From Auriscalpium vulgare (lineage: Eukaryota > Basidiomycota > Agaricomycetes > Russulales > Auriscalpiaceae), in NCBI GenBank assembly GCA_019915015.1, contig JAHBBC010000004.1:1860001-1924000 (forward strand): a stretch of DNA of 64,000 bases, written 5' to 3'. Positions 40,701 to 64,000 of the stretch are shown here, piece after piece. The notes under the pieces are model-generated. The model was not told the DNA's origin, made no database searches, and saw nothing but the letters and a program-made list of their open reading frames with translations. Both the position numbers and the translations under genes were made by a program. Position 1 is the stretch's first letter. Each line of letters opens with the position of its first letter.

Positions 40701-40799
40701 GACGTGCTCCGTGTCCTCGACCGGTTCATCTTCGTCGTCTTCACTGCAGGGCACAATCGGCACGCTGCCCACCACGCGACCGCGCCCGGCTCGTGCTAC

Positions 40800-41720
40800 A
40801 GCTGCATCCGCCCCGCTGCCACACCCTCCGCAACCTCCCAGCGCGCCCGCTGCTGCACCACCGTCCCCCCAGCGTGTGCGCCGTCGCCCTAGCAACGCCC
40901 ACGCCGCCCAAGCTCGCCCGCACCGCTCCAGCTCGCCCGCCGCTGCTGCCACACCCTCCGCACCCTCCCAGCGCGTGCGCTGCTGCACCACCGGCCCCTC
41001 AGCGCGCCCGCTGCTGCACCACTGTCCCCCCGGCGTGCGCGCCGTCGCCCTAGCAACGCCCACGCCGCTCCAGCTCGCCCGCACCGCTCCAGCTCGCCCG
41101 CCGCCGCTGCCACACCCTCCGCAACCTCCCAGCGTGCCCGCTGCTGTACCACCGTCACCCTAGCGTGCGCGCCGTCGCCCTAGCAACGCCCACGACGCCC
41201 AAGCTCGCCCGCGCCGCTCCAGCTCGCCCGTGGCTGCTGCCACACCCTCCGCACCCTCCCAGCGCGTGCGCTGCTGCACCACCGGCCCCCCAGCGCGCCC
41301 GCTGCTGCACCACTGTCCCCCCGGCGTGCGCGCCGTCGCCCTAGCAACGCCCACGCCGCTCCAGCTCGCCCGCACCGCTCCAGCTCGCCCGCCGCCGCTG
41401 CCACACCCTCCGCAACCTCCCAGCGTGCCCGCTGCTGTACCACCGTCACCCTAGCGTGCGCGCCGTCGCCCTAGCAACGCCCACGACGCCCAAGCTCGCC
41501 CGCGCCGCTCCAGCTCGCCCGCGGCTGCTGCCACACCCTCCGCACCCTCCCAGCGCGTGCGCTGCTGCACCACCGGCCCCCCAGCGCGCCCGCTGCTGCA
41601 CCACTGTCCCCCCAGCGTGCGCGCCGTCGCCCTAGCAACGCCCACGCCGCTCCAGCTCGCCCGCACCGCTCCAGCTCGCCCGCCGCCGCTGCCACACCCT
41701 CCCAGCGCGCCCGCAGCACC
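40800..41720. repeat. GC-rich minisatellite, 291-bp period, about three copies
   Basis: Landmarks such as GCCGTCGCCCTAGCAACGCC recur, and whole blocks repeat at 291 bp (for example 41166 and 41457). Each unit is itself two similar half-units of about 145 bp. Because 291 is a multiple of three, open frames run through on both strands and give Pro/Ala-rich or Gly/Ala/Arg-rich translations; I regard these as artefacts of the repeat, not proteins. Confidence 0.85.
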
Positions 41721-42213: not shown

Positions 42214-43429
42214 CTAGCGATACGATCGAATTGCATTCCGCACCAGTCCGAACATATCTGGAAGTGCGTGCCATATATCGGCTCTGAGTTGGCCGTTTTG
42301 GCTGATCGTCTCCCTTGCACGACCCCGGCACAGATCCTTGATACCCGATTCACTGAGTACCCAATCTGTCGGCAGCTCGAGAGATGAGAGCCAGTCCGGG
42401 ACGGCAGGGTCTTCGATGCGGCTATTCCACCAGGTGCACGCTACCTGTTCGCATCTGGCGCTGTTTTCAGGATCGCATTCGCACCCGTCGTTGCTGGCCG
42501 CACCCATGCGTTTGATTTTCGCCGAGATAAAGTCCCGCAGCCTGATCTTGCCCAAGATGACGCGTTGCAACTCGTCACTCGTCAAGAGCCCGAGGTCGCG
42601 TTCGTACGCGGCGCCTTCTTCGTCTCCCATGTCGGTCAATGAATCATCGGTGGCACGCGCGAGGTCGTAAAACAGTCCCGGAAGGACGTGAGGGATGTCG
42701 TGTGCAATTGCCAGCCGGATGAATTTGCCTAAAGACGAGGCGTGTCGGCGTTTTGTGATATACATATCGTCAATGCTCGTCCGGCTTACCGGGTTCATAG
42801 TATTTGGGTCGGAATATTCCCTTGTCGTACTCCACTTTGTCCCAGTCTCGCAGCATGTTTGGCCACATCATAGTGAGCGCGTTAACCACCTGCTCTCGTA
42901 TGTCTGTTGCATCGTACTTAGTCGCGAGGGCTAATATGCCGGTGTAGGCGACAGGAAATTTGGGAAAGGGGTTGTCGTAGATTAGGTCGAGGCCATAGTT
43001 CGGCAGGTGCTCACGGAGTTGTCTTCACAGTGTAGTTAGCGGATTTTCCACGCGAAGACGAGGCGGTTACGCGTACTTGGGATGGTACATCGCGTCCAGG
43101 AAGTTCTCAACCTCCTTCGGTCCATCTGCCAACTCCATCACCGGCACTCCTTCGTAGCGTTCCGACGCGCGTTCGAACGTGGCCTGGTCTCCTTCGAACA
43201 GTGTCGCGAATGTGCCGCAGTGGACCGCGAGGACGATCTTGTGCACCCGGTAAAGTACGAATTTGAAGTCAGAAGTTTCGGTGCGTGCTCTCGTGCGGAT
43301 GACGATGTCACCGTCCGGTTGCCATACCGCGCCTTTGATCGCGAACTCCTGTATGAGGGCAGCGTCAAGGCGGATCTTCTGTCGTTTTTTTGGGGGGGCC
43401 TGTACTGAAAGCGGTACTGGTGACGTCAT
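42214..43429 (-). CDS. BTB/POZ-domain protein
   Basis: The ATG at 43429 gives MTSPVPLSVQAPPKKRQKIR, then a BTB fold: DGDIVIRTRARTETSDFKFV, LYRVHKIVLAVHCGTFATLF, PVMELADGPKEVENFLDAMY, and after an intron near 43030-43066 a second half with AYTGILALATKYDATDIREQ and VVNALTMMWPNMLRDWD. After another intron comes an alpha-helical C-terminal part (LGKFIRLAIAHDIPHVLPGL, TSDELQRVILGKIRLRDFIS) with a Cys-rich CECDPENSARCEQVACTWW segment. This layout is common in agaricomycete BTB families with many copies per genome. BTB domains mediate dimerisation and often cullin-3 adaptor roles. The last exon stop at 42214 is my best reading; an additional 3' exon is possible. Confidence 0.78.
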
Positions 43430-46400
43430 TGCTTTAAATTCGAGTGAACAGGGAGATGAGAGGCTATGCGAGGGAGGTGGTGGTTGGGAGAGGGTGTTGA
43501 AGGTGGGTACGTCCGGATCACTCGCGGTCGGGCCGGTCAATTGCGGCGCTATAGCCGCCGAATTTAGCCTGCTACCCCATCTCCCTCGACACGGTTACCG
43601 CCCTTGCACTTCTGGGACTCATGGTGTTTGGGGCCTCTCGTTTTTCGGTCGTCCGAATGGTCCCAATAGTATTTAGATGTACGAGGTACACATGTAGTGG
43701 GCCTCCTCAATCCGTATTCCTTGTAGTATAAGCTCGGCCCGAATGTGCTCCGGCGTTTTTGCAGGCTCTATGGGTTCGCGCGTTTCTACGTATCCATAAG
43801 TGACCAACACGGCGTTGTAAGATATGACCTGCAAAAATGTTAGATTCGACGGTGTATTCAATTGTGGGCGAGTGGGAACATACGGCGTGATCGCCTGCAC
43901 CGTGGTCTTCTTCGTCCGACTGCCCCACTGCGCTGTGTTCCTCTTCGTCAGGCAGCCCTGAGCATTCGGTGGAGTCCGGTACCGTTTCAAGGGAGGGTAA
44001 TGAATCGCGTGGTGAGGTCTGACCATAGTGCCGTAAGACGCGGGTCGTATAGAGATAGCGTTGATCCATCTCACATCGCCGGTATGTTTCACGTCTTGGT
44101 TCTCAACTACAGGCGGGGTGCATAGGCTTCTCTGTCAAGGTGTTTGTCAGTGCTGGCTCATTAACATCATGAGATGGTCTCATACCTCGTGGTGCAGCTC
44201 AGCACCGTATCCGCGGCCGGTGCAGGCGTCTCCGAACGACGACCCATAACGGCGCGTGGGGCTGCCGTTGCTCTGTGCTCGTACGGTTGAATGGCCTTTA
44301 TGCGAACCCTGCGATGACCTTACCTTGGTGCGGATGTTAGAACCGTACGCGTTCGTAGAAGCGTTGCCCGGGTTCAATGTCTGTAGCGGACTTAGTCGTG
44401 CACTGGTGAATGGTGGTCCTCGTACGAATAGCAACTGCGGTATGTCCCAGGGTCGCTTCGTATCTGTCCTGTCAACGCCCCTGCCGTATTCGTCGTCTGC
44501 GCAATGGCCTCGAGATGAGATGCAGAAGAAGCTGCAACGACCTGCGCCCGTATGTCACGATGCGTCGAAACGGAGCTATGGGTACTCACCGAGGAGGAGC
44601 ATCGGTCCTTGAGGTGCAGGGGCTCTGGGCTGTGACGGGTGCCTGCGTTCGTGGGCTTGCTCTTTATCTCGGACATTTTCACATGTGCTTACTCAAGCAT
44701 ACACCGTCGGTGGCGATGTCTCGGCGCTATCGGCGGTCGGACGTTCTCCGATAGCCGTTCGTCACTGCGCGTGCTGCGCATCGTGCGAGGAGTCACTTCC
44801 GGGTGTAATTCGTCCTTCGATATCATGGCGGGGATGGATAAAGACGGAGTTTGTTGTAGTACATGCGCGCTAGGCTATACCGGTGCGACAGCTACTACGT
44901 ATTCAATGTTGGATTGACGCATGTTAGACGAGTCGATGGGCATAAGTGGAAATTGCATACGCCATGCCCATCTGCCGCCATCCGCCGTCCGCACCATCAG
45001 CGCTCGTCTGCGCACGTGGTCGTGATAAGTGGTGGACACACCTTCTACGTGGACGAGGTCCGCTATGAAGTCAACAATGCGTACAATAATAGGGTGGGGG
45101 CGGAGATCAATGCACCCATGGTTATCAAGATCTGGGCACAATAGTTGGTAGTGGGCGTCTCGTACGAGCCTGAGGTAAAGAGGTGGTGGGGGGCAGGAGT
45201 ACCCGCGCGTTCTGCTGCGGTCCATCTGGGTGGGGCTCGCCGTGCCGATATCGTGGTCCATTGCAACGCTGATGACTGCACGGAGGTCCTTATACTATCA
45301 AATAAGCGGAAAAGGTTAGCTTTGCCATGCGCTCGCTTGTGCGGATTGCTCACCCTAGAATGTGGTCAGTTACGCTGGCCTGTGAGTAGGTGCGGTTCGT
45401 GACGTACTGGTCTAGCGTCAAAGCTATCGGAGCCTCGTGCCCTACGGCCTCGACGATCCCGTTGTCGGACGCTCTACCACGGACGATTAAGCAAACGTCC
45501 CCGCGTGGCGTCGGTATACACTCACTGGTCTCCGAGCTCGCCGATGCTTCCTCCGTACAGCCAGATAAGCCCATTGCCCGGGGACGGTGTTCCGAAAACA
45601 TGACAATAGACGCCTTGTACTGTCGACAGCATATCTGAGCCCGGAGTGGTTGCTGGCTGGTGCTGTGCTACGGATGGCATTGTGGCTGCTTAGTGAAAAT
45701 AGACCGCTTGGCGAGCGAGCGACGGCCATGCGCAATTGAATTATGTAATGATCGCATCCCCCGTAACAGGAAGAGCGACGTGGTCTACGTGCATCGGTAG
45801 CAGTGGGTACTGGAGGCGCCAAACGCAATGACCGAGGGAAGGTGACCAAAACAAAACAGGTCTGCGACTGAGGCAGTATTCCGCAGTGCTATCGCCGGGA
45901 CTACCCTCTTCACCGTAGCAGAATGTGACGGTGTCGTTTTCAAAGTCTTGACCCGAATGATGCACGGGTACCGCCTAATGGGTAGGTCCTTTTCGTCTTC
46001 GTCGAGATGGCGTAGCAGCCGGTATTTCTCGCCTCGGACGATGTGCAGGTATCGGGGAGGGGGCGAGATGTGTACAGTGCGCCCTTGGTCTAGAATGCAC
46101 AGTCGAGACCTTGTGGGGTTTGCGCGATTCACTTGATGGTCTTGCGCCGCAAACGCGACGGAGGCCAGTTCATCGAACTGCGTTAGCGTTGTCAGCGCCG
46201 CGTTCGTTATGACTTCGTCGACGTACCCTGGGCGGAGTTAGCGGTCTGTGGGGTGTACCGAGATGCATGCAAGCTCACCATTCGTCGTCGACGTTCTGAG
46301 GCTGCGATTTCCCCGCGAACATATGAACGGTGCGGTACCTGTGGTTGCTGCTGTGGTACGCGGATTTGTAAACGGGAGGGTGTGTGCTTTGACCGGGCAC

Positions 46401-50455: not shown

Positions 50456-51113
50456 TGATACGCTATCACCCGGGACGGACCCTAGCGGGGCGTGCGGCGA
50501 GTGCCTCACGGGGACAACAACCACCAACACTGCCTCCTATACGTCGCGATCCAGTCCGGGTGACTAGTCTTGCTGAGGGGGGAAGGTGTTCGTGTCGCTG
50601 TTGCGCTTCGTGCCCTCCCCGCGGTCGTGCGGGGCCACCTCCTACCGCCTAAACACCAAACTAAACACTCACCTGCCTGGGGATGCCCTCTACGGGATCC
50701 TCCTCCGAGTGCTTCGCACCCGTGTGCGAAGCGTCCGCCTATGGGCCGTCGCACCCCCTCTTGCCTGTCCGCCTGCCTACCTGTTCCCACATCGGTGGGG
50801 TCCTTCCTTCCTAAGTCTGGTAGCGCCTCAGGCTACAGTTTCTGTGAGGTAAAGGGTGTGGGTGGCTTGCGCCGCCCACAGGTTGATTGGGTTGCTACGT
50901 CTCGCGCAGCTCCCTAAGTAGTGGCTCTACCTACGTCGCTAAGCCCGCCCGATCCAGCCCGTTCCGGTGATCCGTTCCGTCGCCAGTCCCGGTCGCTCCT
51001 GGGTCGCCGGACCACGTTCCCATCACCCCCGCTCCCGCGACCCTGCGCCTCGCATGCTGCTTCCCCGTCTCGCGACGTCTCGCTACACGCTTGCCCGCGG
51101 CCTGAACCTATCA
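50456..51113 (-). repeat. 3' LTR of the retrotransposon
   Basis: 658 bp, starting TGATACG and ending CTATCA on the plus strand, giving the short inverted ends TGATA/TATCA. It includes a hairpin with a 9-bp stem (GCTTCGCAC, loop CCGT, GTGCGAAGC) near 50710. I find no difference from the right LTR over the 649 bp visible in both. Confidence 0.93.
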
Positions 51114-51160
51114 TTTCTCCCCCAACTGAAACTGCAACTGTCCCCAGTTGCCAGGAACCG
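51114..51160 (-). promoter_or_regulatory. Polypurine tract plus hairpin next to the 3' LTR
   Basis: In element orientation GGGGGAGAAA directly abuts the LTR, as a plus-strand primer (PPT) should. On the plus strand, beside it lies a stem-loop GCAACTG-TCCC-CAGTTGC. The same arrangement recurs at 56405-56446. Confidence 0.75.
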
Positions 51161-51240
51161 TGCGGAAGCGGCATATAAGGGCTCGCGACCTTTCGCGATA
51201 ACGTCGCTTGTAGCATCCCTTTGCCGATTTCTGTCCCGCG

Positions 51241-52489
51241 ATGTCCCTCCCCGCAGCGTCTGCCACCGCCGACAACCTCGACCTCCTCCGCCTGTTGACG
51301 CAGGCCCCCTTCGCTGGTTTTGACCTTGGGGATGCCGAACGGGAGGTTGCGCTACGTCTAGAGTGGGCCGACAAGGTCAACCAGCTCGTGGTGCGTGCTG
51401 GTCCCCGACCGCGTCTTTTCCGGGCTTGGCTGATGATGAACTCAATTCCAGACCCTTTCTTCAATCCGCGCGTCCCGCAGCCTGCGCGATCTTGCCTTCC
51501 ACTTCACCTCGCCGATCCTCGAGTTCATGGTGAAGCTCGTTCCAGCGTCCGCCCCTCTCGCCCAGCGCTTCGAGGGCACCCTCATGCGTACCCTCCCCGA
51601 CTCAGCGCGCGCCAGCCCGCGGTGGTCCCAGATGTTCTCCCCTTTCCCTGCCGACGCTACCGACGCGGAACTCCACGTCTTGATCACCATCGTGGAGGCT
51701 GGGCTCTGGACCGTGTACTACTTCGGAGACGGTTCTGTCGAATCCTACCTCCATGAAATCACGGAGTTGCATGGCGCCTTCCCCACCCTGCGTCCTCAGG
51801 GGATGCAGAGCTGGCTCCTACGTGATTTCGACGCCCGGGCCATCCATGGGATGTTTGTTATCACCCGCGAAGACGCCGTGTGCCGCGCCCTGGCCTACCA
51901 CGTCCGTGGTGCCTCCAGCTCCCCCCACTCTCGTGCCTACGCGGGCCGCCTCACCACGGGCGTGGTGTACTACCTATTGGGGGGCCTCGCGGAGGACTCG
52001 GTGGATATGTTACGGGACTTTACCACCATTTCCGAGGCCTTCGACACGTTTCGCGATATTTGGGCGGACTGGCCACTGGTGTTGGATCGCCTCGACATGC
52101 GCTGGGCCGCGATGGCAACCTGTATGGGCGGGATGCTGGACGCATGGGGATTAGGGTCCCGCCTCCTGGCCAACCTCCAGCCCGCAGACTTCCTGGTCCA
52201 GGATATCAGCGTGGCCTCGATTCGCGCCATCGAGCAGATCAGTTCTGCGCGCCTCTCGCACATCTCCTCCTCCCAAGCCATAGCTGAGATACCCCTAGGC
52301 TTCGATGCCATAGTCCATCCCTCGGACCAGCCGGGCCCTCTTCCCTTCCCCGCGCACCCCACGGTACCAGCGCCGACGGCCCCCTCCGCGTCTCCTACCT
52401 ACGCCGGGGAGATACCGCCGCCCATCGCCAGCTCGGAAGAAGTCGAGGAGGGGGAGGTGATCGAGCTTCTGATGGAGCGCGAGGAATAG
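51241..52489 (+). CDS. Retrotransposon antisense module gene 1 (unknown)
   Basis: Plus strand, opposite to gag-pol. MSLPAASATADNLDLLRLLT at 51241; intron 51391-51451 (61 bp, GTGCGT...TTCCAG) keeps the frame, giving NQLV then TLSSIRASRSLRDLAFHFTS and PILEFMVKLV. About 395 residues, mostly helical, with RWSQMFSPFPADATDAELHV, EAGLWTVYYFGDGSVESYLH and LGGLAEDSVDMLRDFTTISE. The tail is Pro-rich and then acidic (SSEEVEEGEVIELL), ending at the TAG at 52487. No family recognised and no catalytic motif evident. The intron can persist because the mobilised RNA is the other strand. Codon usage is GC-rich like gag-pol. Confidence 0.72.
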
Positions 52490-52828
52490 GTATATTCCCG
52501 GGCCAATGTCTGTAGAATGTTCCATAGCTATTGAAATGGAACCAGGAGCCATGTGCGGCTTCCCCCTGTCCCTGTGCCACGTTTCGCGATGCCTTGCGAT
52601 AAGCTCCTGGGCCCATGCCGGAGGCCCCGTCTGAGTCGCGATCTGTCGCGATAACCCACGTTGGCCGGAACTCCGGCGAGACCCTCGTGTTTTGGTCTTC
52701 GCGCTGTATCGCGACGCCGCGATGGTGTGCCTCTTTCCCTACTCGCGCCGCCTATATGAGGGGGCTGCGACGATGGCCTTTTCCAAAAACACCCTCAACG
52801 CCCCAGTCCGTCCGACTACCTCCTCCAC
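52490..52828. other. Gap between module genes 1 and 2
   Basis: About 340 bp, presumably the 3' end of gene 1 and promoter of gene 2. It contains several TCGCGAT motifs (for example near 52585 and 52635). An ATG at 52773 opens a different frame that I could not connect to gene 2. Confidence 0.45.
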
Positions 52829-54009
52829 ATGCAGGCCGTCCTACTCCGCGCGTTTTCGCGTTTCCGGCTGTACCAGCTGTTGATACATCCGGTTGAGGTG
52901 CCCTTGCCTGGTGCCGACGCTTCCTCATTTCCCGCGGCCGCCGTTGCCTGGCTTCAGGAGATCTCCGACCTATTGGTGCGTCGTCCCGCGGCCCTCTTTT
53001 CCCTCATCCCGGCCTCGTACTGACGTTGTCTTCGCTTCTTCCCCTTTTTCAGCAGGACCATCGCGAGACGTCGCATTTTACCCTACCGGCCCTCGCGTCC
53101 ATGACCGTCGTCTCGACGCTCTCCTACCTAGCGGAGCGCTTTCCCGAAACGTTCGAACAAACCGCCCCCATTCGCGCGAATATCGTAGGAAATATTCCGT
53201 TCGGAGGGGACAACGCCCCGGGGCAGCCACCCAGCGTCGCTCTGCTTCCTCACGTGGTCCATGTGGACTCCTTGGCCCACCTGGTGGAGCGCTCCGTTTG
53301 GTTGCTGTACCGTCACCAACTTCACGGCCGGGCAACTTTCGAGGTCAACTTGGCAGCGCTGTTCGGCCCCGAGTTTGCCCCCCGTCCCGACGGCCTTGCC
53401 ACCCGTGTTGCCGAGTTATTCCTTCGCGACCTCGATCGTTTGAGTGACGACCTCGACCACGCCGACGGGCTGGTCGGGGCCCTCATGCTCCCCTTGAACC
53501 GCGCCGTGATCGGAATGACCCACCCCCGCGACATTGGCGTCCTCGACTTCCTTGCGGCCGCGAGTCCCTCGTTGCAGGCTGCCCATCGTGCGAACGTCCG
53601 TGAAGCCGCCGACTATCTCGTTCCCGGCCTCAAGTTGGTCGCGGAGCTTCGCGACTTCGTTTGGGCGGACCAATTGAACGCCAGCCACCTGCGCCACGCC
53701 GTCACTCGCCTCGAAGGCACCGCGGGAAAGCTGCTGTACGATGCCTGCGAAGTTGCCGCGGTCCTCGACCACCTCGCCGGTGCCGGTCCTATGCGCCGTA
53801 TGCTTACCGCCCTTCCCTTCCCGCCGCTTACTCACCGAGTCATCCGCCGCGGCTCTATCGCGTTCTCGTGGGGGGTCCCCAACCTCGTTGAGGTCGTGGG
53901 CCCGAGGCCTCCTGATGCCCTGAGTCGACGGGCTGGTCGTAGGAATGGGGGTAACCGCGCCCGGACTCCCGCGCCCAATGGTGCGTCTGGGTCCGGTGCG
54001 CCCGCGTAG
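52829..54009 (+). CDS. Retrotransposon antisense module gene 2 (unknown)
   Basis: The best start is the ATG at 52829 (MQAVLLRAFSRFRLYQLLIH). Exon 1 ends WLQEISDLL, then an intron with GTGCGT donor and TTTTTCAG acceptor (about 52976-53054) leads into QDHRETSHFTLPALASMTVV. The helical body includes HVDSLAHLVERSVWLLYRHQ, GLATRVAELFLRDLDRLSDD and LRHAVTRLEGTAGKLLYDAC. The C-terminus is basic and Gly/Ser/Pro-rich, ending at the TAG at 54007. No family recognised. The intron phase and exon lengths mirror gene 1, though I see no clear sequence similarity. The 5' end is the least certain part of the model. Confidence 0.65.
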
Positions 54010-54288
54010 CGAGCGATTCCTGTAATTTGCCCAAGGCGCCCTTAGGGCCCAGTAATGCCATTCCGCTCCCTATCCCTTCTTCTTGACTCGCGCGCGAACG
54101 CTCGCTAAACCGTGTGAAGGTAAGCGCCGCACCTGTCGCGGCCCGGCGGGCCCGCTCTGCTTCCACGTCGGAAGCAAAAACCCACACGCTGGCGCGGCGC
54201 CCCGTCTTAACGCGACGCGTTGCGCCTCGACCTCTCCGTCTCTCTCTTTCCTCCCCTCACCTCTCCCTATCTCCCCCCTTCCCTGGCC

Positions 54289-55989
54289 ATGTCTGCGTTC
54301 TCCCGCCCTATCAACCTCAGGAAACGGCTGTCCGCCGTAGAAGCGCTCGTCGCCTCCCTCCCCACAGTCGACCCCGCCCACTACGGCGAGTTCGCCGCGA
54401 ACTGGGAGTCGGCCACTGTGAGTGCCCACGGCCTCTCGCTCCCGACGCTCTGCTGACCCTCCCTTGTGTCCAGTCCGCCTATGCTGAGGTGTTGGGGGAG
54501 GACCCCCCGCCGTCCGAGGTGCTGGACAGGATCGGGGCCGTATCCGCCGTTGTCGACGCCTGGCCGTCCTCCGGCCCCTCCCCCACGCCGTCCTCACCCA
54601 CCATCCCCTACTCCACTCCCGTCGCCGCTCCCCTCTCCCGTCAGGCTGGCAAGCGGGCCCGCGCCGACAGTGCCCTCCCCGCGCCTTCTGTCCGCCCCCC
54701 GGTCTCCTCCACGCCTCACCGCGCCGCCGCCCGCGCTTCCCCGCCGCCCACCAAGCGCAACCGCGAGTCCGCCCCCTCCGAGGCTGACGCCGAGGCCGAG
54801 GTCGACGAGCTAGATGAGGCGGGGGACCCGCAGGAGCCCGTCGCGCAGCGCACCCGCGGCGCCACCAAACTCCCCGCCCCCCGATCAGTCCCCGCCGCCG
54901 CCAAGTCGAAGGGCAAGGGCAAAGCCGTCCGCAGTTCCAAGCGCCCTGCCAACGTCCCCTCCGGCTCCCGCGTGCCTCCGCCCGCCGCCACTGTCCCCTC
55001 TTCCGAGGCCGGCTCCCCCGCGCCCGCCGCCGACCCTTCCACCTCCGTCAAGGGCGCCAAGATCCCCGTCGCTGACACCTTCCCGGGCCGCCGCCTTCAG
55101 GTACGTCGTCCTTTTCTTGTCCGTTGTGTTGCGCCGCTCACACTCCGACTCTCAGGCTTCCGCCCCCTGCTACCGCTGCGCCACGATGGACTCCCACCCC
55201 ACGTGCTTCTTCACGGACGTCAGCGGCCGCCAGTGCCATCGCTGCTTCGTGGGCCACCACAAGTGCGACGACGGTGTCCGCGGGACGCACTTCTACGTGG
55301 TGGGCAGCGACGGAGTCTCGCAGGATGTCGACCCTGCCGGCATCCATGTCCGTCCCCGGTCCTCCGCCTTCGACTGGGCCGACCACCCCGACCCTGCCGG
55401 CGCCGTCCCCATCCTCCGCTACGACTCCCCGCCGCAGCTTTTCCGGACCTACAACGCGCTCACGGAGGAGCTCAACACCATCAGCGTCAACTACGCGACG
55501 CTCGACGCCCGGGCCCGCGGCATCGTCGCTGAGCGGAACTGGGTCTGGCAGACCCTGCAGCAGCTCGGCGACCCCGCGTTCCCTGCGCCTGCTGGGGGCC
55601 TCATCTCGCCGCAGGTTGGCCCCTTCGATCCGCCGCGCCGCATCCCTCTCCCTGCTCCCCCCGCGTTGCGCGCCTCTTCTCCCGCGCCGGCCAGGCCTGC
55701 CTCGCGCCTCCTCCTCGCGCCACCCTCGTCGGCTCTCATCGCCTCTTCCCTCCCGCTGCTTAGCGCCGCCGTCGTGCCTCTCGTCGGTCGCGCCTCCCGC
55801 CTTCCTTCCCCCGTGCCTCCGGTTGCTCCCGCCGCGCCCTTCTCGCCGCTCGCCGCTGCCGCTCCTCCCGCGTCGGACCCTGCCCCCGGCCCTACCATGC
55901 CTACCGCCGCCGCTCCCTCCTTCGAGGATGTCGGCACGCCGCCCTCCGCCGCGGCTGATGGTCCCGCTGACCCCGCGCCCGCCGCTTAG
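54289..55989 (+). CDS. Retrotransposon antisense module gene 3: Cys/His-rich putative zinc-binding protein
   Basis: MSAFSRPINLRKRLSAVEAL at 54289 begins a short helical domain. Intron 1 is 54418-54473, rejoining at SAYAEVLGEDPPPSEVLDRI. A long basic, Pro/Ala/Ser-rich linker follows (RQAGKRARADS, PPPTKRNRESAPSEADAEAE, AAKSKGKGKAVRSSKRPANV), resembling nuclear-localisation and DNA-contacting sequence. Intron 2 is 55101-55155. Then comes a compact cluster with spacing C-x2-C-x8-C-x8-C-x2-C-x3-H-H-x-C (CYRC, HPTC, QCHRC, GHHKC), likely zinc-binding. A helical segment (YNALTEELNTISVNYATLDA) and a long Pro/Ala/Ser-rich tail end at the TAG at 55987. A nucleic-acid-binding role is plausible but inferred. 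No named family recognised. Confidence 0.75.
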
Positions 55990-56404
55990 CCGCTTGCGAG
56001 CCTTCTTCAAAAGGAGTCGCCCCTGCTTCAACAGCAGAGGGCCTTGGTGCTTCGATGCGGGGGGCGTTCCTCGTGTCCTAGGTGGGGGTTTCGGCGTCTC
56101 GCTGTCGTGTTGTCCGCTCGTTATCGGTCTGTTCATAGTTGTTCGCTATCCGTCGCTACCTCTTTGCTGTGTACATAGAATTCGCTATCCTGCTATGTTG
56201 TGAATAGAGTCCATTGCTTGTGTCACAGTGTGAGCGTGTCCTATCGCGTTTCCGGCGCGACCTCAGCCTTGTTCCAGACCCTTGAAGCCTTAGTTGGTGC
56301 CTGCCCAGTCCGAGCTTCGCTAGCGCTCGCGACCTCGACTTATCGTCCTGACTCGTCTCCATCCGTACTTCCAGCTGTTCAGTCCTAAATACCACCGTCT
56401 AATC
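55990..56404. other. 3' flank of module gene 3
   Basis: About 415 bp, T-rich, with repeated GAATTCGCTATC/GTTCGCTATCC-like stretches. It probably holds the 3' UTR. No gene. Confidence 0.4.
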
Positions 56405-56446
56405 CTCCCCCCAACTGAAATATCGACTGTCCTCAGTCGCCGTAGT
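56405..56446 (-). promoter_or_regulatory. Second PPT-like tract with hairpin, just downstream of pol
   Basis: The plus strand reads CTCCCCCCAACTGAAA followed by the stem-loop CGACTG-TCCT-CAGTCG. It matches the tract at 51114-51160 in order and spacing. The stem differs by a compensated pair (A-T there, G-C here). It lies 16 bp past the pol stop, where a standard element would have its PPT and LTR. Confidence 0.72.
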
Positions 56447-56461
56447 GCTGGGCGGTACTTT

Positions 56462-59400
56462 TTAGACGGTGATCTCGTCGTCCTGGTCATCGTCTTCCCT
56501 GGTGGGGTCGTCTGCTTCCTCTTCATGAATGGCATCGTGATCCTGCCTATCTTCATGAAGTAGCTCGTCCACCCTTGACTGTGGGACGTCCAGAAATTCG
56601 GGCAACTCTGGCAGCGCAATGTTCGTTCGCGCGAAGTAAGGCAGGACGCGAAACTCCGCGACCGGTCGGTCGAAGAGCGCACCGTGGAGGTCCGCAAGCA
56701 CGTAAGGTCCTCCTTTCCGTCGACCAATTACCACGAACGGTCCATCGTAGCGCGGAAGCATTTTTCGATCTAATGACTTCTCGTACCGTGTGAACCGTAG
56801 GAGGACCAAGTCGCCTCTCTTGAAATTGTAGTCGCGAATCGTCGCTTCGTGGTCACGTTCAAATTTTACCGCCGCGATACGTCGCGCTTCAAAGACTTTG
56901 TCGTGGATGGTCCTTAACTGGGCTTTTCTCTTTTGTAGGGCCATTGCCCTGCGCGCTATGAGGTCTGTGGAAGACAGTAGAGACTCGGGCGGAGGCATCA
57001 AGTATGAAGCCTCGATGATATCCAGCGGCATTAGCGGCTGCGTTCCTGTTACCGCGAAGTATGGCGAGCAGCCCATCCTCCGCCTGATCGTTATCCTGTC
57101 CGACCAGAATACCGAGTACGCAACCGATGACCATTTTGCAGCATTTCCATCGGCTGCCTTGTAGAGCGCTTGACGTACGTCGAAGTGAGACCGCTCGACT
57201 ATTCCGTTGGCTCGCGAATTATATCCCGATATTCGAATGTGCCGGACTCCATACTTATGCGACAGGGATTCCAAGGCCGACACGAACGGTGCGCCGTTGT
57301 CCGTGACCACTTCTCGCAGGGCGCCCCACCGGCACAAGACGTCTTCGAAAATCCATTTCGCGATGGCGTCCGCCGTCTCCGCCCTTAGCATTCTCCACTC
57401 TGGATAGTGGGTTACGGAGCAGCGTCCTTGCACGATGTATTTGAATCCGCCGCTTGCTGGCATATGCATGGTGTCTGCATACATCTTTGCGAAAAGGTTC
57501 GCCGGCGTTGCCACCGTTGGCGGTATCAGGCTGTGGCGAACTAGTCGGGTTTCGCAAATATGGCACGTTCGCACCCACCAGGCCACGTCTGCGTCCACGT
57601 ATGGCCACCAGAAACGCTCCAACAGCATCATCCGCGTCGCGTAGACGCCTTTGTGTCCGACATCGTCATGAGCTGCTTTGAGGACCGCGATACGTCGGTC
57701 TCCTCCCAGCACGAGTTGGTGCCTGCCTTGGTGGTGCCTTTTGAAAAGGCGGTCCCCATCCTTGAAGAACTGGAGCGCGTATCGAGCGAAACGAGCGAAC
57801 TGTTCGTCGGTCAAGCCCGCCGGCCGCGCCAGGGTCCCTAACCAGTCCCTGACTAGTTCCAGCCGCTTGTCAGCTTCATGAGCCTTGTCTGATCTGGGAA
57901 CATCGCGATACGTCGCGTCCTGTACTGGTGCGGGTTGCATTTGGACCGTAGTTGCCCAGACGTCGGCCGGTTCATCGTGGGAGCGCCGGGCCTCCTCGCG
58001 ACGTATCGCGTCCTGGCTTGAACCAGCCCCATGTTCGTCTGGTATGCTTCCTGGCCCCGTCCATCCATCTTGCCGTCGCGAGGCTCTCTCTTGCGCTGTC
58101 TTCGGGACTACCATGTTTACGATATGTGCGAAACCATACACCGCATCAACCCAGTCGTCGAAGTCGTCTTCCTGTTCCAGAGCGTCTCCTGGTTGCCTAC
58201 GCCTCCTGGATAGGCCGTCGGGCCCGTGGAAGAGTCCCGGCACGTGCACTAGCTCAAAATGGAACATCAGGATGCCTATAATCCACCTGTTCATACTGGC
58301 CGATGGCTCGAGGTCAGGATTTTCCAGCATGCCTTTGATATACCTGGCGTCGACCTCAATGGTCAGGTTCCTCACCCCTATCAGGTAGACTTTAAGGGCC
58401 CGCAGGGCTCGAAAAAGACCATAGAGCTCCAGCTTGGGCTGCGAGAACCGCGCTTCGCGATCGTTTAGCGCGATGCTACCAAATCGAGAATATCGGCGTC
58501 TCTTCCTGTCTTGGGGAACGTTGGGGTCCGCCTGACTCAATAGGAAACCCACCGCGATGTACGAGGTGTCTACCGCTAGGATCACGGGGGCCTCCGACGT
58601 GTAATCAATCGGTAGGAGCGCTGGTGATGCGAGGACTGCCTCCTTGAGGTCCTCCATAGCTCGCGACTGTTCGGGTCCCCATTCGAACGGGACGTCCTTC
58701 CTCGTCAGGTGTGTCAAGGCATGGGCTCGGTGCGCAAAGTTACGGATAAAGATGCGCAGGACTCCGACTGTCCCCAAGAAAGCCCGTACGTCTGAGAGGT
58801 CCGTGCACGGCCCCCAATTGCGAATCTTCGCGACCTTTTCTTCGTCTGCCATCCTTCCTTGCGGTGTGCAGCGATGCCCTACCACGTAGAATTCTGGTAC
58901 GCACAGCTGTGATTTCCATCCTGAGAACGTGCCATGACAGTAGCGCATTCGTTGGACTACCCTGTTAACGTTGTTAAAGTGTTCCCATACGAACCGCCTT
59001 ATGCCGTTGTTGCCGGGGATCGTTTCGTATCCTCCGCCTTCCGTCCTGTAGTCCGAGTCCGGCCCCTTCAGGGGGACGTCGTCTATAAAAGGCACCGTAA
59101 TATGCGGGATTTCCGGTTGGAGAATAAAGGTCACGTCGTCGTGGAAGATCGGGACGGAATTCGTCCACCCCATAGGCAGGGTCACCAGCCGTTTTGCGCC
59201 GTACGGCGTCTGGAAAGTCGTGAGGTCCCTTGAGGCTTCATCTAGTCTCCTTTCGTCATAGCCCACGTAGAGGTCCAGAATTCCCCCGCACGGCCGCCCC
59301 GCAAACTGCTCCGCCAAATGATCTGGGAAGGGGGGTACTCCTGAGTGCGCGATGGTCACCGCATTCAGGGGTTCCAGACTATGGACTATACGGAGGCTGG

Positions 59401-60253
59401 TCCCGTCCTTCTTAACCACACAGAACCACCTAGAGCGGTACGACGAGTTTGAGTCCTCGTAGACTCCCGCGGCGATTTTGGTCTTGATGAGCGCCATGAC
59501 CTTGTCGTATATCCCTGGCGGAATCGGAATATTTCGCTGAACCCACGGCCGATGCGGAACTACTGGTATTGTGACGGGGGGGAAGAAGTCTTCTCGGAAG
59601 CGCCCCCGCTCCGAGTCGTCCCAGGCAAATGCCTCGTTTTGTGCGCACATAAACGCATGCATGAGCTTCCTTTCTTCCGGCCATAGGAAATCTCCGTCGT
59701 GGACTCGGTCAAATTGTTCGCGACGTTCCGCGGTGTACCTTCCCGTGGGTACGAAGTCCGGTGGCTTCTCTGGGAGCGGCGGCATATCCGCCAGGGGGTC
59801 CCCTCTGATCTCTCTGAGGATCCGGAAGTGCTCCGGCAGGTCCGTACGAATGGGCTTTACCTTGAGGTGTGCTGGCTTGTAACGCTTCTTCGTGGCCGCA
59901 AAGACTTCGCGCTGCATCGCGGTCGGCTGTAGCTCACCTCTGTCCGTTTCCTCCTCTCTTTCTCTCCCACTCTCGCCGTCTCCCCAGTCTGCCGCCGTCC
60001 AAATAAACGTCCCTGCTCTTGCTCGTTCCTCCTCTTCCTCTCCTTCTTCCGCTCGCTTCGCGAACACTCCCGCGTATTCCTCCGGTAGGTCGCACACTGA
60101 CAAATAAGCTGACTGCACATCTTCGATTGTAGGCGAGGATTCGAGGTACACCAGGGATTCCATTCTAAGAGTATCAGGCTTATCGGGCTCGAACCCCACG
60201 ACCAGCCCTACCTCCTCCTGGTCCTCCAACAAATCCTCTAGTCGCGAAAACCC
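56462..60253 (-). CDS. pol: Retrotransposon pol polyprotein (reverse transcriptase, RNase H, integrase)
   Basis: About 1,256 codons in the -1 frame relative to gag. No ATG near its beginning, so it is most likely made as a Gag-Pol fusion. Reverse transcriptase: YRSRWFCVVKKDGTSLRIVH, FQTPYGAKRLVTLPMGWTNS and the catalytic FIDD (in VPFIDDVPLKGP) in place of the usual YxDD. RNase H region: APVILAVDTSYIAVGFLLSQ and SQPKLELYGLFRALRALKVY. Integrase: zinc-binding HHCC (GHKGVYATRM to CHICETRL), catalytic MYADTMHMP, VVTDNGAPFV and SRANGIVERSHFDV (D, D, E), and a C-terminal GPF/GPY module (YDGPFVVIGRRKGGPYVLAD). The terminal acidic tail ends at the TAA at 56462. The RT and integrase are uninterrupted, so the copy may be active. 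Confidence 0.92.
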   Translation of the reverse strand, partial: GFSRLEDLLEDQEEVGLVVGFEPDKPDTLRMESLVYLESSPTIEDVQSAYLSVCDLPEEYAGVFAKRAEEGEEEEERARAGTFIWTAADWGDGESGREREEETDRGELQPTAMQREVFAATKKRYKPAHLKVKPIRTDLPEHFRILREIRGDPLADMPPLPEKPPDFVPTGRYTAERREQFDRVHDGDFLWPEERKLMHAFMCAQNEAFAWDDSERGRFREDFFPPVTIPVVPHRPWVQRNIPIPPGIYDKVMALIKTKIAAGVYEDSNSSYRSRWFCVVKKDGTSLRIVHSLEPLNAVTIAHSGVPPFPDHLAEQFAGRPCGGILDLYVGYDERRLDEASRDLTTFQTPYGAKRLVTLPMGWTNSVPIFHDDVTFILQPEIPHITVPFIDDVPLKGPDSDYRTEGGGYETIPGNNGIRRFVWEHFNNVNRVVQRMRYCHGTFSGWKSQLCVPEFYVVGHRCTPQGRMADEEKVAKIRNWGPCTDLSDVRAFLGTVGVLRIFIRNFAHRAHALTHLTRKDVPFEWGPEQSRAMEDLKEAVLASPALLPIDYTSEAPVILAVDTSYIAVGFLLSQADPNVPQDRKRRRYSRFGSIALNDREARFSQPKLELYGLFRALRALKVYLIGVRNLTIEVDARYIKGMLENPDLEPSASMNRWIIGILMFHFELVHVPGLFHGPDGLSRRRRQPGDALEQEDDFDDWVDAVYGFAHIVNMVVPKTAQERASRRQDGWTGPGSIPDEHGAGSSQDAIRREEARRSHDEPADVWATTVQMQPAPVQDATYRDVPRSDKAHEADKRLELVRDWLGTLARPAGLTDEQFARFARYALQFFKDGDRLFKRHHQGRHQLVLGGDRRIAVLKAAHDDVGHKGVYATRMMLLERFWWPYVDADVAWWVRTCHICETRLVRHSLIPPTVATPANLFAKMYADTMHMPASGGFKYIVQGRCSVTHYPEWRMLRAETADAIAKWIFEDVLCRWGALREVVTDNGAPFVSALESLSHKYGVRHIRISGYNSRANGIVERSHFDVRQALYKAADGNAAKWSSVAYSVFWSDRITIRRRMGCSPYFAVTGTQPLMPLDIIEASYLMPPPESLLSSTDLIARRAMALQKRKAQLRTIHDKVFEARRIAAVKFERDHEATIRDYNFKRGDLVLLRFTRYEKSLDRKMLPRYDGPFVVIGRRKGGPYVLADLHGALFDRPVAEFRVLPYFARTNIALPELPEFLDVPQSRVDELLHEDRQDHDAIHEEEADDPTREDDDQDDEITV

Positions 60254-63200
60254 TCCACCCCCTGCTTCTGGGTTCGCGAGATGCGCTTGCGGCCGCGTGG
60301 AATAGTGGGGATTGACGCCATGACTCCCGTGTTTGGGTCCGTGATCGTGATTGTCTGCCTCTCGTCTGCAAAGTTTTGCACGGTACTTCCCGTGAGAACG
60401 TCAAAGGGCCTCCCCAGGAGCATGTCGTACGCCGGGTTGCGGATGATATGCACCTGTACGTATAGCGTTATACCCCCAATCTTCATCGGGACGTTTCTAG
60501 CCAGGCCTAGCGACCTATCGCGACTTTTGTTGGCCGATATCATATCCAGGCGAACGTTCGGATCGTAATGCAGCCCGAGGTAATGGCATACGTCCTCGGA
60601 CATGGAAATAATCTGCGACCCGGGATCCACGACTGCCTCGATGTGCGCTTGGTTGTCGACTAGTGGCAAGATCGAACGGAGGGCCAGCGATTCCTTGGCG
60701 ACTTCCAACGGCTCAGGGTCTGGTTCCCCTTCTCCTGCTTCTCCTAGATCTCCCATCAGAACCTCCACAATGACTTCTCCTACACGCGTCCCCTCGGGCA
60801 ACTCCGTTGGCTGGTGTCCCAGGGCTTGCAGAAAGGTTTCGGGCATATGGTCCGCGAATCCCCTCACCACCTTCTCGTCCTCTCCTTCCCCTTCGTCCTG
60901 GTCAAAGTCGAACGGAAAGAGCTCTGGTTCGCTTTCCACCATCGCCTGGACTACTGGTACTCTTGCCTCGTTTGGGACCCGCTTAGGGGTCACCACGTTG
61001 CGAACCTGAGCGCGTACTTCCGGGGCAATGGACATGAGCTCCCTCTGTGTCAAGGTGACCTCCGCATTCATGGCCCTCTCATAAACCTTACTTGCTATTA
61101 CGGGGTCGCGGACCGGGGCGACCTTATTGTATGCTGGGTCCGCCTTGCGCTGCCCCGCGCTTCGTTGGTAACTTGCCGGCCCTATGTACGTCGCGTCGGG
61201 CACCTTCGCGAAAGGGTGGATCGGAGGTGTTAACGGCTCCTCACCCGCTGTGCTGTCCTCGTCGGCCTGCCTTTGTTTGTCTGCGCTATCCCCAGTCTCC
61301 CTTGGTCGGTCGACGGCCTCCGGCTCGAAGGAAACCTGCTTCTTGGCTTGCGTAAACGGCTTCCTCTTCGGAATGACCACCTCTGGAACTCGTCGCGATC
61401 TTTCGCGCTCGCCAGGCAGCAGCCCTATTGCCTGGGGAAACTCGCCCGCGTCCAGTGCGGCCTGCCGGCGTTCCTTCTGAGCTTGCCTTTCCGCTCGGGC
61501 CGTCAGGAGCACTGCCATCTCCTGCTGGAGCTCCGTCATTCTGTCTTCGTCGGTCAATTGCGGCGTCAGTTGGATTAGGCCGGCGACCGTCTGCACTTTG
61601 GCCGGCACTGGCTCGTAGTCCATCGTCGTCAGCATCATGGCTTCTGACTGTCCGTGTTGATTCCCGGCGTAGTACGCATCCACACGCTGCTTCAGCGGGC
61701 CTTCTCCTAGCGGGATAAGTCCTCCACCCTTCAGAACGACCCGGTTGTTGTGGTCCCTAGATACGCGACCCGTCGCGATGTAGTCCTGGACCACCATACA
61801 TTCCCTGACGAAGTGCCCCGTTTGGCCGCAGAAAAGGCATCCTGACGGCCCTCCCTGTCCGCCTTGATTTCCTTGCGTGGCGCGCGGCTGTTGAGTTCCC
61901 GAGGTACCCCCATAACCCCTCTGACCTCCGCCGTTCCCCTGGTTGACGAGCATCCGCGCGAACTGTTCGGCAACCGCGGCTTTGATTGCTTCTTGAAACT
62001 GTTCTATTTTGATTACAGGCTCCGTCGTTGCAACCGCCACTGCCGGTCCTGCGCTGACCGCTGGTACGATTGAGGGAGTGCCCCTCAGCTCGTACTCTCC
62101 TGCCTCTAGCACGTCGGCCATGGGGTACGGTGTTTCTTTATCGTGGTCCGGCAATTTGATCTGCAGTCTCGTCGCCACCCTGTTCATGAGGCTGTCCTGG
62201 AAAGCGCGAAGGAACGCGATATCGCGCTCACGGGTCGAGATCCTGCTTTTCTTAACCAGGAAGTCGGTGATCGCGAAGAACTGCCGATAGAATTCGCTGA
62301 GCTCGCCGCCGGACGCAATGCCCAGACGGTACCGACTGCCTACGAGCGCGTCCATGTCCGCGATGGTATACTTGCGGTCCTCATCGGCTCCCGGGTACAG
62401 TTTAACAATGGCGTCCTGAAAGTCTTGGTAGGTCTTGGTGGGATCCTTAAACTCCGGCCTCGCTTCCCACTCCTCAGCCGTCGCGACGTCTAGGTAACGC
62501 ACTGCATGGCCCTTCTTCGCCGTATCATCCGCTAGTTGAGCCCGGGCAAAGAGATGGTTCAGCTCGTCGAAGTAACGCGGTAACTCGCGGGCCTTCTGAT
62601 TGAAAGACGGTGCGTTGCGGTCCCCGCGGGTAGGCATTGCGACTGGCGCGACGTTGGGCTGAGGCGGTATTGCCTGTTGTCCGCCGCCTCCCCCTCCTCC
62701 ACCGCCTCCGCCTCCGCCGCCGCCTCCTCCACCCGTCCCTGTTCCTTGTTGCTGTGTACTCATTCCTGACTGTGTTGGCGACTTTGGGTTGCTGGGGTTC
62801 GAACGGCTTGATGGAGCTTCTTGGGGATTGTTGCTGGCTTCCGCGACGTTTCGCGAAGTCCTATCTTGTAAGGAAACGGCCCGTCCCCATCCCGGACTGA
62901 CCCGTTCGTTCCTCGAGCATTCCCCTTCCGGATCATGCCGTGTGTGATGGTCGCTATCGCCACCATCAGAATTCAGAAGCAAACCTTCTAGTCCCTCGAT
63001 CGTGACGCGATCCCCTCCTGTGATCAGGGACCTAGGGTCCTCTCCGGCGCGTCGGATCTCCCTACTGAGGGTCGGTCCATGCGGATCCTCTTCTTCTGAT
63101 GGCAGACTTGATAGCGATGAGACTTCCCCCTGTTCGTCTTGTGGTTCCTCGATTTCTGCCTCTATGGCCGCCTGTCGCGACGTATTGCGAGCGTCCGCCC

Positions 63201-63261
63201 TCGTGGTCCTCTGCGGCTGTGTTCGCGTTGGGAGGTGGGCTATCTTGGGTTTCGGCGCCAT
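60238..63261 (-). CDS. gag-pro: Retrotransposon gag with aspartic protease
   Basis: 1,007 codons from MAPKPKIAHLPTRTQPQRTT at 63261. A basic N-terminus and a disordered Ser/Gly-rich stretch (with a poly-Gly run of about 20 encoded near 62690) precede the gag core: FNQKARELPRYFDELNHLFA, AEEWEARPEFKDPTKTYQDF and YPGADEDRKYTIADMDALVG. The nucleocapsid zinc knuckle is CLFCGQTGHFVREC (C-x2-C-x4-H-x4-C). Near the C-terminus a retropepsin-like domain has VVDPGSQIISMSED, NVPMKIGGITLYVQVHIIRN and AYDMLLGRPFDVLTG. The active-site triplet is D-P-G where D-T/S-G is usual. The stop TAG is at 60238-60240, 5 bases before the first codon called for pol in the -1 frame. Confidence 0.92.
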   Translation of the reverse strand: MAPKPKIAHLPTRTQPQRTTRADARNTSRQAAIEAEIEEPQDEQGEVSSLSSLPSEEEDPHGPTLSREIRRAGEDPRSLITGGDRVTIEGLEGLLLNSDGGDSDHHTRHDPEGECSRNERVSPGWGRAVSLQDRTSRNVAEASNNPQEAPSSRSNPSNPKSPTQSGMSTQQQGTGTGGGGGGGGGGGGGGGGGGQQAIPPQPNVAPVAMPTRGDRNAPSFNQKARELPRYFDELNHLFARAQLADDTAKKGHAVRYLDVATAEEWEARPEFKDPTKTYQDFQDAIVKLYPGADEDRKYTIADMDALVGSRYRLGIASGGELSEFYRQFFAITDFLVKKSRISTRERDIAFLRAFQDSLMNRVATRLQIKLPDHDKETPYPMADVLEAGEYELRGTPSIVPAVSAGPAVAVATTEPVIKIEQFQEAIKAAVAEQFARMLVNQGNGGGQRGYGGTSGTQQPRATQGNQGGQGGPSGCLFCGQTGHFVRECMVVQDYIATGRVSRDHNNRVVLKGGGLIPLGEGPLKQRVDAYYAGNQHGQSEAMMLTTMDYEPVPAKVQTVAGLIQLTPQLTDEDRMTELQQEMAVLLTARAERQAQKERRQAALDAGEFPQAIGLLPGERERSRRVPEVVIPKRKPFTQAKKQVSFEPEAVDRPRETGDSADKQRQADEDSTAGEEPLTPPIHPFAKVPDATYIGPASYQRSAGQRKADPAYNKVAPVRDPVIASKVYERAMNAEVTLTQRELMSIAPEVRAQVRNVVTPKRVPNEARVPVVQAMVESEPELFPFDFDQDEGEGEDEKVVRGFADHMPETFLQALGHQPTELPEGTRVGEVIVEVLMGDLGEAGEGEPDPEPLEVAKESLALRSILPLVDNQAHIEAVVDPGSQIISMSEDVCHYLGLHYDPNVRLDMISANKSRDRSLGLARNVPMKIGGITLYVQVHIIRNPAYDMLLGRPFDVLTGSTVQNFADERQTITITDPNTGVMASIPTIPRGRKRISRTQKQGVEGFRD
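60247..60253 (-). promoter_or_regulatory. Putative -1 ribosomal frameshift site GGGTTTT
   Basis: In the gag frame the codons are GGT TTT preceded by G, so the heptamer fits X-XXY-YYZ exactly. Slipping back one base continues into the open pol frame (GGG TTT TCG CGA CTA GAG). It lies four codons before the gag stop. Confidence 0.7.
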
Positions 63262-63330
63262 GTTGATCAGCGACCGGGTGCCGTCTACGAGGCTGATTTT
63301 AAAGCTCGAACACGATCGTCATCACCATAC

Positions 63331-63348
63331 CCCTCGCGGTGGGCTCCA
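63331..63348 (-). other. Candidate primer-binding site
   Basis: In element orientation TGGAGCCCACCGCGAGGG begins three bases after the 5' LTR. Starting with TGG, it can pair with a tRNA 3' CCA end. I could not identify the tRNA. Confidence 0.55.
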
Positions 63349-63351
63349 AAA

Positions 63352-64000
63352 TGATACGCTATCACCCGGGACGGACCCTAGCGGGGCGTGCGGCGAGTGC
63401 CTCACGGGGACAACAACCACCAACACTGCCTCCTATACGTCGCGATCCAGTCCGGGTGACTAGTCTTGCTGAGGGGGGAAGGTGTTCGTGTCGCTGTTGC
63501 GCTTCGTGCCCTCCCCGCGGTCGTGCGGGGCCACCTCCTACCGCCTAAACACCAAACTAAACACTCACCTGCCTGGGGATGCCCTCTACGGGATCCTCCT
63601 CCGAGTGCTTCGCACCCGTGTGCGAAGCGTCCGCCTATGGGCCGTCGCACCCCCTCTTGCCTGTCCGCCTGCCTACCTGTTCCCACATCGGTGGGGTCCT
63701 TCCTTCCTAAGTCTGGTAGCGCCTCAGGCTACAGTTTCTGTGAGGTAAAGGGTGTGGGTGGCTTGCGCCGCCCACAGGTTGATTGGGTTGCTACGTCTCG
63801 CGCAGCTCCCTAAGTAGTGGCTCTACCTACGTCGCTAAGCCCGCCCGATCCAGCCCGTTCCGGTGATCCGTTCCGTCGCCAGTCCCGGTCGCTCCTGGGT
63901 CGCCGGACCACGTTCCCATCACCCCCGCTCCCGCGACCCTGCGCCTCGCATGCTGCTTCCCCGTCTCGCGACGTCTCGCTACACGCTTGCCCGCGGCCTG
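63352..64000 (-). repeat. 5' LTR of the retrotransposon (partial, window ends within it)
   Basis: Matches the left LTR base for base as far as I can read it. About 9 nt are missing at the window end. In element orientation it supplies the promoter of gag-pol. Confidence 0.9.

Follow-up and report, generated by a model that had tools for sequence, protein, structure and literature searches.

A conserved module of three predicted antisense, intron-bearing genes in Ty3/gypsy retrotransposons of Auriscalpium vulgare

Background

Long terminal repeat (LTR) retrotransposons are generally regarded as getting by with the genes gag and pol alone. A stretch of 64,000 nucleotides from the genome of Auriscalpium vulgare (assembly GCA_019915015.1, contig JAHBBC010000004.1, positions 1,860,001 to 1,924,000), referred to as the window, contains on its minus strand a young Ty3/gypsy element, here called W (50456-64009, the last 9 bases lying beyond the window end). 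The region between pol and the 3' LTR of W (51114-56461) carries three further predicted genes, g1, g2 and g3, all of them on the plus strand and antisense to pol. This locus raises the question whether the three genes are an accidental cargo of one element or a conserved part of a retrotransposon lineage, and which role their products might play. The comparison of copies and families showed a conserved and selected module of predicted protein-coding genes in a retrotransposon lineage, and the products of these genes may act as regulators of the element.

Results and discussion

Gene models of the antisense module

A previous annotation made from the window alone, the sequence-only reading, had proposed three genes that lie between pol and the 3' LTR on the strand opposite to gag-pol, are open over 395, about 370 and about 530 codons and are interrupted by short spliceosomal introns. 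The present gene models bear this out, the deduced proteins comprising 395, 367 and 529 amino acids and the four introns being without exception of the GT-AG type, 55-77 nt in length and in phase 0. The g1 gene (51241-52489) consists of exon 1 (51241-51390), which has homologous exons in the g1 genes of the sister families S and T described below, a single intron (51391-51451) located 20 amino acids ahead of a PILE motif, and exon 2 (51452-52489), which is characterized by a hidden Markov model (HMM) match to the S and T g1 genes and a helical AlphaFold2 (AF2) model. The g2 gene (52829-54009) is likewise composed of exon 1 (52829-52975), one intron (52976-53052) and exon 2 (53053-54009), its assignment as a g1 paralog being based on homology and alignment in addition to the gene model. 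The g3 gene (54289-55989) contains two introns and three exons, namely exon 1 (54289-54417), exon 2 (54474-55100), which is rich in alanine and proline and includes basic patches, and exon 3 (55156-55989), which starts with a cluster of six cysteines (55168-55266). TATA-like boxes were read by eye 5' of g1 (51174-51179) and 5' of g2 (52753-52759), also on the plus strand. A Pfam search with g1-g3 of W at E-values up to 1 assigned none of them to a family.

The sequence-only reading had also argued that the antisense orientation explains how the introns survive retrotransposition, and we agree by inference, since the RNA that is mobilised contains them back to front. Each gene would have a promoter of its own and be transcribed in the direction opposite to the genomic RNA of the element, the resulting messages would be spliced for translation, and the packaged genome would retain the introns reversed and intact.

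Occurrence of the module in the genome

Module DNA was detected at at least 28 places, 26 of them matching over the whole or nearly the whole length (28 of 95 candidates were scored), and pol DNA at at least 38 places (38 of 322 candidates were scored), 30 of which match over the full 3939 bp, as well as in two small fragments. A search for the g2 exon gave 50 pieces from about 47 places, all of which are at least 93% identical and free of internal stop codons. Whether the module is always located between pol and the LTR had been left as a question by the sequence-only reading. At 22 of the 30 places with a whole pol, g3, g2 and g1 follow at identical distances, at seven the module is interrupted, shortened or partly missing, and at one no module gene is present; one of the seven irregular places (C1:894988) differs only in a shortened g1 protein match, its module DNA running whole. 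At least one module gene was present within 25 kb at 29 of the 30 places, and when ten further pol places are included, all three genes were found at 39 and at least one at 44 of 48 places, within 25 kb and on the proper side and strand, although at larger distances a neighbouring copy may be counted by mistake. The genes thus occupy their position regularly, also in the S and T elements that were read, and the fear of a one-off capture is not borne out.

A deletion form of W was recognised at C1:3691601-3700600 (L046), where the segment corresponding to window positions 52274-55652 is missing and g1 continues in frame into the tail of g3, giving 381 amino acids. In total, six g1 matches including this one have frames of 381-406 amino acids, with no match to g2 or g3 nearer than 10 kb, and the five further matches (383-406 amino acids) presumably have the same deletion.

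At another place (L043, C2:2562001-2570000) two W-like pol stretches lie close together in a rearranged region with internal repeats, in which no module sequence was matched.

Purifying selection on the module proteins

Sequence variation was analysed in 30 copies including the window, of which 8 had been picked by module DNA and 22 by g2 protein score. Altogether, 48 amino-acid-changing and 67 silent variants were counted in g1-g3, corresponding to a ratio of 0.31 per site overall and to 0.29, 0.14 and 0.44 for g1, g2 and g3, respectively. Premature stop codons were absent from g1-g3 in all 30 copies, and among the copies covering a gene as a whole (8 for g1, 30 for g2 and 8 for g3) insertions and deletions were confined to the g2 intron. 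The splice signals are intact in every copy covering them, that is in 8, 30, 27 and 27 of the 30 copies for the four introns. In the 8 copies chosen by DNA the ratio was 0.18 for g1 (4 changing versus 9 silent variants), 0 for g2 (0 versus 3) and 0.44 for g3 (11 versus 11), and 1.5 kb of pol from the same copies yielded 5 changing versus 10 silent variants, about 0.20 per site. A frame test on the main exons gave 0.27 for the predicted reading frame and 1.7-2.3 for four other frames; the fifth frame, at 0.30, has its third positions in common with the reading frame and is not distinguishable from it by this test. As judged from these variants, g1, g2 and g3 are under purifying selection between copies.

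The module in the sister families S and T

A search with the W pol listed 13 places, designated family S, with an identity of about 80% over 541 amino acids and of 59-60% further on. One element of this family (L041) and one of a further family T (L045, reached through the polypurine motif described below) were read. Both contain three antisense genes in the same order as W between pol and the 3' LTR, and both are bounded by nearly or fully identical LTRs (849 bp at 99.88% identity in S, 715 bp at 100% in T) and a GCGG target duplication. Moreover, an antisense g1 was located downstream of pol at all 13 listed S places, with 6.5-11.1 kb between the match starts. Over the aligned parts, identity between the families amounts to 72-79% for pol and 18-30% for g1 and g2, so that the module evolves much faster than pol. 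Judged from these comparisons, the module was already present before at least three families (W, S and T) diverged. Since the reading frames are kept in many copies, the variants fit these frames and homologs with the same intron positions are present in two diverged families, the module is more than a chance assembly of open frames.

Relationship of the module genes to each other

The sequence-only reading had spoken of three genes of unknown family. Two of them, g1 and g2, are related to each other, as shown by profile matches and an aligned intron. A profile built from the S and T g1 proteins detected g1 of W with 85.4 bits (best of 500 shuffled sequences, 4.7), and a profile of the S and T g1 and g2 proteins together detected g2 of W with 34.8 bits (shuffles, 3.5); by these matches, g1 and g2 form one family. 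In addition, a single phase-0 intron is located at the same aligned position in all six g1 and g2 genes of W, S and T. It precedes a P-I/V/L-L/F-E motif by 20 residues in five of them, and g2 of W keeps the spacing and not the motif. The sequence comparisons thus show g1 and g2 as ancient tandem paralogs in one fast-evolving family without a known relative.

The g3 proteins each contain one cysteine cluster with the spacing C-X2-C-X8-C-X9-C-X2-C-X6-C in W, the second spacer being 10 residues in S and 9 in T. The cluster comprises every cysteine of the protein (six) in W and S, it is preceded at a distance of four residues by a phase-0 intron in all three genes, and its pattern was not met in 20,000 shuffles per protein. 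Between g3 of S and g3 of T, about 81 residues could be aligned at 54% identity. Fungal Zn2Cys6 domains have the spacing C-X2-C-X6-C-X5-12-C-X2-C-X6-8-C. The g3 cluster resembles this type without being canonical, with a second spacer of 8, 10 or 9 residues in W, S and T instead of 6 and the remaining spacers fitting.

Repeated polypurine tract-hairpin units

The motif CCTCCCCCCAACTGA, which marks the polypurine tract (PPT), occurs 166 times in the genome, and a reversed control sequence was not found. When as many as three mismatches were tolerated, two such motifs were seen in the module region of W, three in that of S and four in that of T, one copy being read per family, and none on the other strand. 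In W they are located at the LTR border (one C short) and at the pol end, in S additionally between g1 and g2, and the T set includes one in the interval from g1 to g2, another before g3 that has decayed, and an altered one at the pol end. Next to the motif lies a hairpin that stays paired although its sequence varies, and the two W units on the minus strand, the LTR-side copy (51114-51152) and the pol-end copy (56402-56442), have 28 of 34 bases in common. For eight hand-picked and hand-registered instances, with the decayed T instance left out, 92.9% of the cells were paired as compared with 73.7% in shuffles, and the covariation score was 0.449 as compared with 0.104, neither value being reached in 500 shuffles. 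In four pairs both partners had changed, a count reached in 13 of 500 shuffles, and there were seven additional pair types, reached in 39 of 500.

The PPT-hairpin unit is probably a plus-strand primer combined with a structural element, and extra copies of the unit lie inside the retrotransposon. The motif lies upstream of g1 or g2 in five of six cases, the exception being g2 of W, and a role of the unit as promoter site for these two genes is therefore possible. By eye, a 10-bp inverted repeat (CACCGTCTAA / TTAGACGGTG, window positions 56387-56475) was seen to enclose both the hairpin at the pol end and the stop codon of pol.

The one whole-pol copy without any module gene (L042, C18:977609) bears on the case that the sequence-only reading had named against itself, a copy with a clean PPT-LTR junction beside ordinary host genes for the module proteins. 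Such a junction does exist, the LTR of this copy meeting the pol end via a single PPT-hairpin. However, this unit is a hybrid, the left part of which matches the LTR-side repeat and the right part the pol-end repeat, so that the copy represents a deletion between the two repeats flanking the module, and no clear host gene for g1-g3 was found outside elements in the genome, part of the matches having been fetched and some not being tied to pol. The loss is most simply explained by template switching between the flanking repeats, a process that might also have contributed to gains.

A more far-reaching scheme, which we put forward tentatively and regard as doubtful, is an antisense regulatory operon built of the cassettes g1, g2 and g3 delimited by PPT-hairpins, in which switching of the reverse transcriptase deletes or adds cassettes and g3 may recognise the repeated unit at gene promoters and at the LTR border. 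A position of each cassette behind such a unit is clearest in family T, with the unit before g3 decayed, and a single loss speaks for cassette exchange via the repeats. If the scheme were true, the retroelement would acquire genes in the manner of cassettes and possess intron-bearing accessory genes of its own.

Possible roles of the module

Taking these data together, the sequences show a conserved accessory-gene module in a lineage of fungal, probably basidiomycete, Ty3/gypsy elements (W, S and T), and we regard the overall explanation, in which the module encodes regulators of the element, as moderately probable. Since the module is common to diverged families and kept under selection, its genes probably assist the spread of the element instead of riding along by chance. 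The proteins would act in the nucleus as element-specific regulators, with g3 binding element DNA and g1 and g2 serving as partners, and would drive element transcription or protect it against host silencing. A nuclear regulator role, our best guess at the function, appears to us evenly balanced between right and wrong. The VANC proteins of plant VANDAL elements or the accessory proteins of complex retroviruses provide the working analogy, and an arms race of this kind would be in keeping with a module that diverges fast next to a pol that is better conserved.

Several observations weigh against this interpretation. The g1-g3 gene models are predictions from sequence. A profile of the S and T g2 proteins alone scored g2 of W at 4.4 versus 4.2 in shuffles, which is within chance, and g3 of W was not found by a profile of its S and T counterparts, with which its bulk is not alignable; its kinship with them is deduced from how the cysteines are spaced, where the intron lies and in which order the genes follow. 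The three cluster exons gave no match to PF00172 at E-values up to 10, in a search whose HMMER filters drop most weak matches, and reached the cut-off of no Pfam model, the best hit being a RanBP zinc-ribbon with the S exon (E 0.2). Since the AF2 model of the cluster is poor as well, DNA binding by g3 is a guess. Finally, about six places appear to have been reached by the deletion form of W that lacks g2 and most of g3, so that these two genes would not be needed in cis.

Alternatively, the module might encode structural or replication accessory proteins without control of silencing, g1 and g2 forming a helical particle or nucleoprotein component and g3 a zinc-dependent nucleic-acid binder for packaging, nuclear entry or integration. 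The AF2 models of g1 and g2 are helical, with middling confidence and no match to a known fold, the module travels with the element and g3 has its one cysteine cluster, all of which would suit such a function. On the other hand, the predicted antisense expression separates these proteins from the gag-pol RNA, and g3 shows basic nuclear-signal-like patches as well as acidic tails in S and T. The usual hydrophobicity cut-off for a 19-residue stretch is 1.6. It is exceeded by two of the nine module proteins (1.96 in g3 of W, 2.01 in g2 of T), whereas the other seven reach 1.19-1.53; hydrophobic stretches are thus not common to the module proteins and an envelope role appears unlikely. Nor do the module genes have the sense orientation of an Env-like third open reading frame, being antisense to pol. 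On balance, we regard accessory proteins of this kind as unlikely.

A second alternative holds that the genes are passengers, captured from a host, that benefit the host or nothing at all and have no part in transposition. Introns and TATA-like boxes as in host genes, the existence of the deletion form and of the module-less copy, and W-type matches untied to any pol place (15 of 57 for g1, 6 of 47 for g2 and 7 of 48 for g3) would agree with this idea. By identity and position, however, the genome matches, some of which were fetched, resemble W, S or T copies or their remnants. The protein collection yielded a single relative of g1, from Auriscalpium vulgare (88% identical over 43% of g1), the gene model of which has the same splice junction as g1 by eye, and nothing for g2 or the cluster region of g3 (for g1 and g2 the best 7996 candidates were scored). 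Along with the purifying selection on mobile copies and the maintenance of the module through the divergence of three families, this renders the passenger interpretation improbable. Least probable of all is an action of the antisense RNA itself, in which convergent transcription would yield double-stranded or antisense RNA tuning element activity, because the convergent arrangement and the antisense transcripts discussed as regulators of other retrotransposons in PMC7264820 are confronted with frame-specific constraint, intron positions and protein homology, which point to proteins.

Comparison with known systems

The nearest case is provided by the Boty-like elements of Botrytis cinerea with the antisense gene brtn (Zhao et al. 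2011, as cited in PMC7264820 and PMC8365987), which are grouped as BcGypsy1 in PMC8365987. According to these citations, they resemble W as fungal Ty3/gypsy-type elements with an extra antisense gene and differ from it in having one gene and an ascomycete host. The sequence-only reading had regarded three such genes in a fungal Ty3/gypsy element as undescribed to its knowledge; an element of this type with one antisense gene is already in print. Among the best matches listed from the open PMC literature, as titles and abstract starts, no fungal LTR retrotransposon with three antisense intron-bearing genes was recognised, and papers outside this collection may exist.

In plants, antisense extra open reading frames are reviewed in PMC7264820, and Retand is treated in PMC11963269. 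These aORF-3R elements include Grande (gene23), RIRE2, Retand (TRP28) and PvRetro13; as in W, a clear host origin is missing, and for some of the plant proteins DNA binding or a nuclear location has been proposed, according to these two articles. W differs from them by the lack of a TRP28 domain (PF04195, no match in seven exon translations at E-values up to 10), by three genes with conserved spliceosomal introns, by the paralogous pair and by the repeated PPT-hairpins.

Among complex retroviruses, HTLV-1 has the spliced gene HBZ, whereas W carries three separate antisense genes. HBZ is an antisense accessory gene outside gag-pol (PMC11963269), and the likeness to W lies in this arrangement, with no homology being claimed. 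VANC, described in PMC5735166 as an evolving element-encoded protein binding a short motif that has accumulated in the non-coding parts of the element, may serve as working analogy for g1-g3 as anti-silencing proteins, although VANDAL is a Mutator-like DNA transposon of plants.

The lineage accordingly carries, beyond gag and pol, three selected, intron-bearing antisense genes without a known family. The antisense module shows how introns can be preserved across an RNA stage, and it could provide a case from fungi in which to test the control of silencing by factors that an element encodes. Its function can be studied by comparison, since the system comprises three families that have diverged, dozens of nearly identical copies and deletion derivatives of natural origin.

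Architecture of element W and neighbouring repeats

The remaining features of W, all on the minus strand, identify it as a Ty3/gypsy LTR retrotransposon with LTRs, primer binding site, PPT and short target duplication, as was likewise the case for the S and the T copy. The 3' LTR (50456-51113; TGATA...TATCA) and the 5' LTR (63352-64000 in the window, continuing to 64009) are identical over 658 of 658 bp. The primer binding site TGGAGCCCACCGCGAGG (63332-63348), read by eye, adjoins the 5' LTR. An open frame for gag and protease with zinc knuckle and aspartyl protease (60241-63318) is followed by pol (56462-60400, open frame 56465-60400), which specifies reverse transcriptase, RNase H and integrase in Ty3/gypsy order. 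The positions of the Pfam matches in both frames give the domain order protease, reverse transcriptase, RNase H and integrase. The gathering scores were exceeded for RNase H, H2C2 and two of the three protease models and not reached for rve and RVT_1.

The target duplications are 4 bp long and consist of G and C only in the one copy read per family (GCGC in W, GCGG in S and T), which is a hint of a target preference. Elsewhere in the window, a repeat at 43326-43910 has a 99.7% identical counterpart at C1:189001-189585, immediately beside a family T insertion. Overlapping direct repeats resembling a tandem array are located at 40795-41702, and a set of diverged direct repeats extends from 30936 to 38994.

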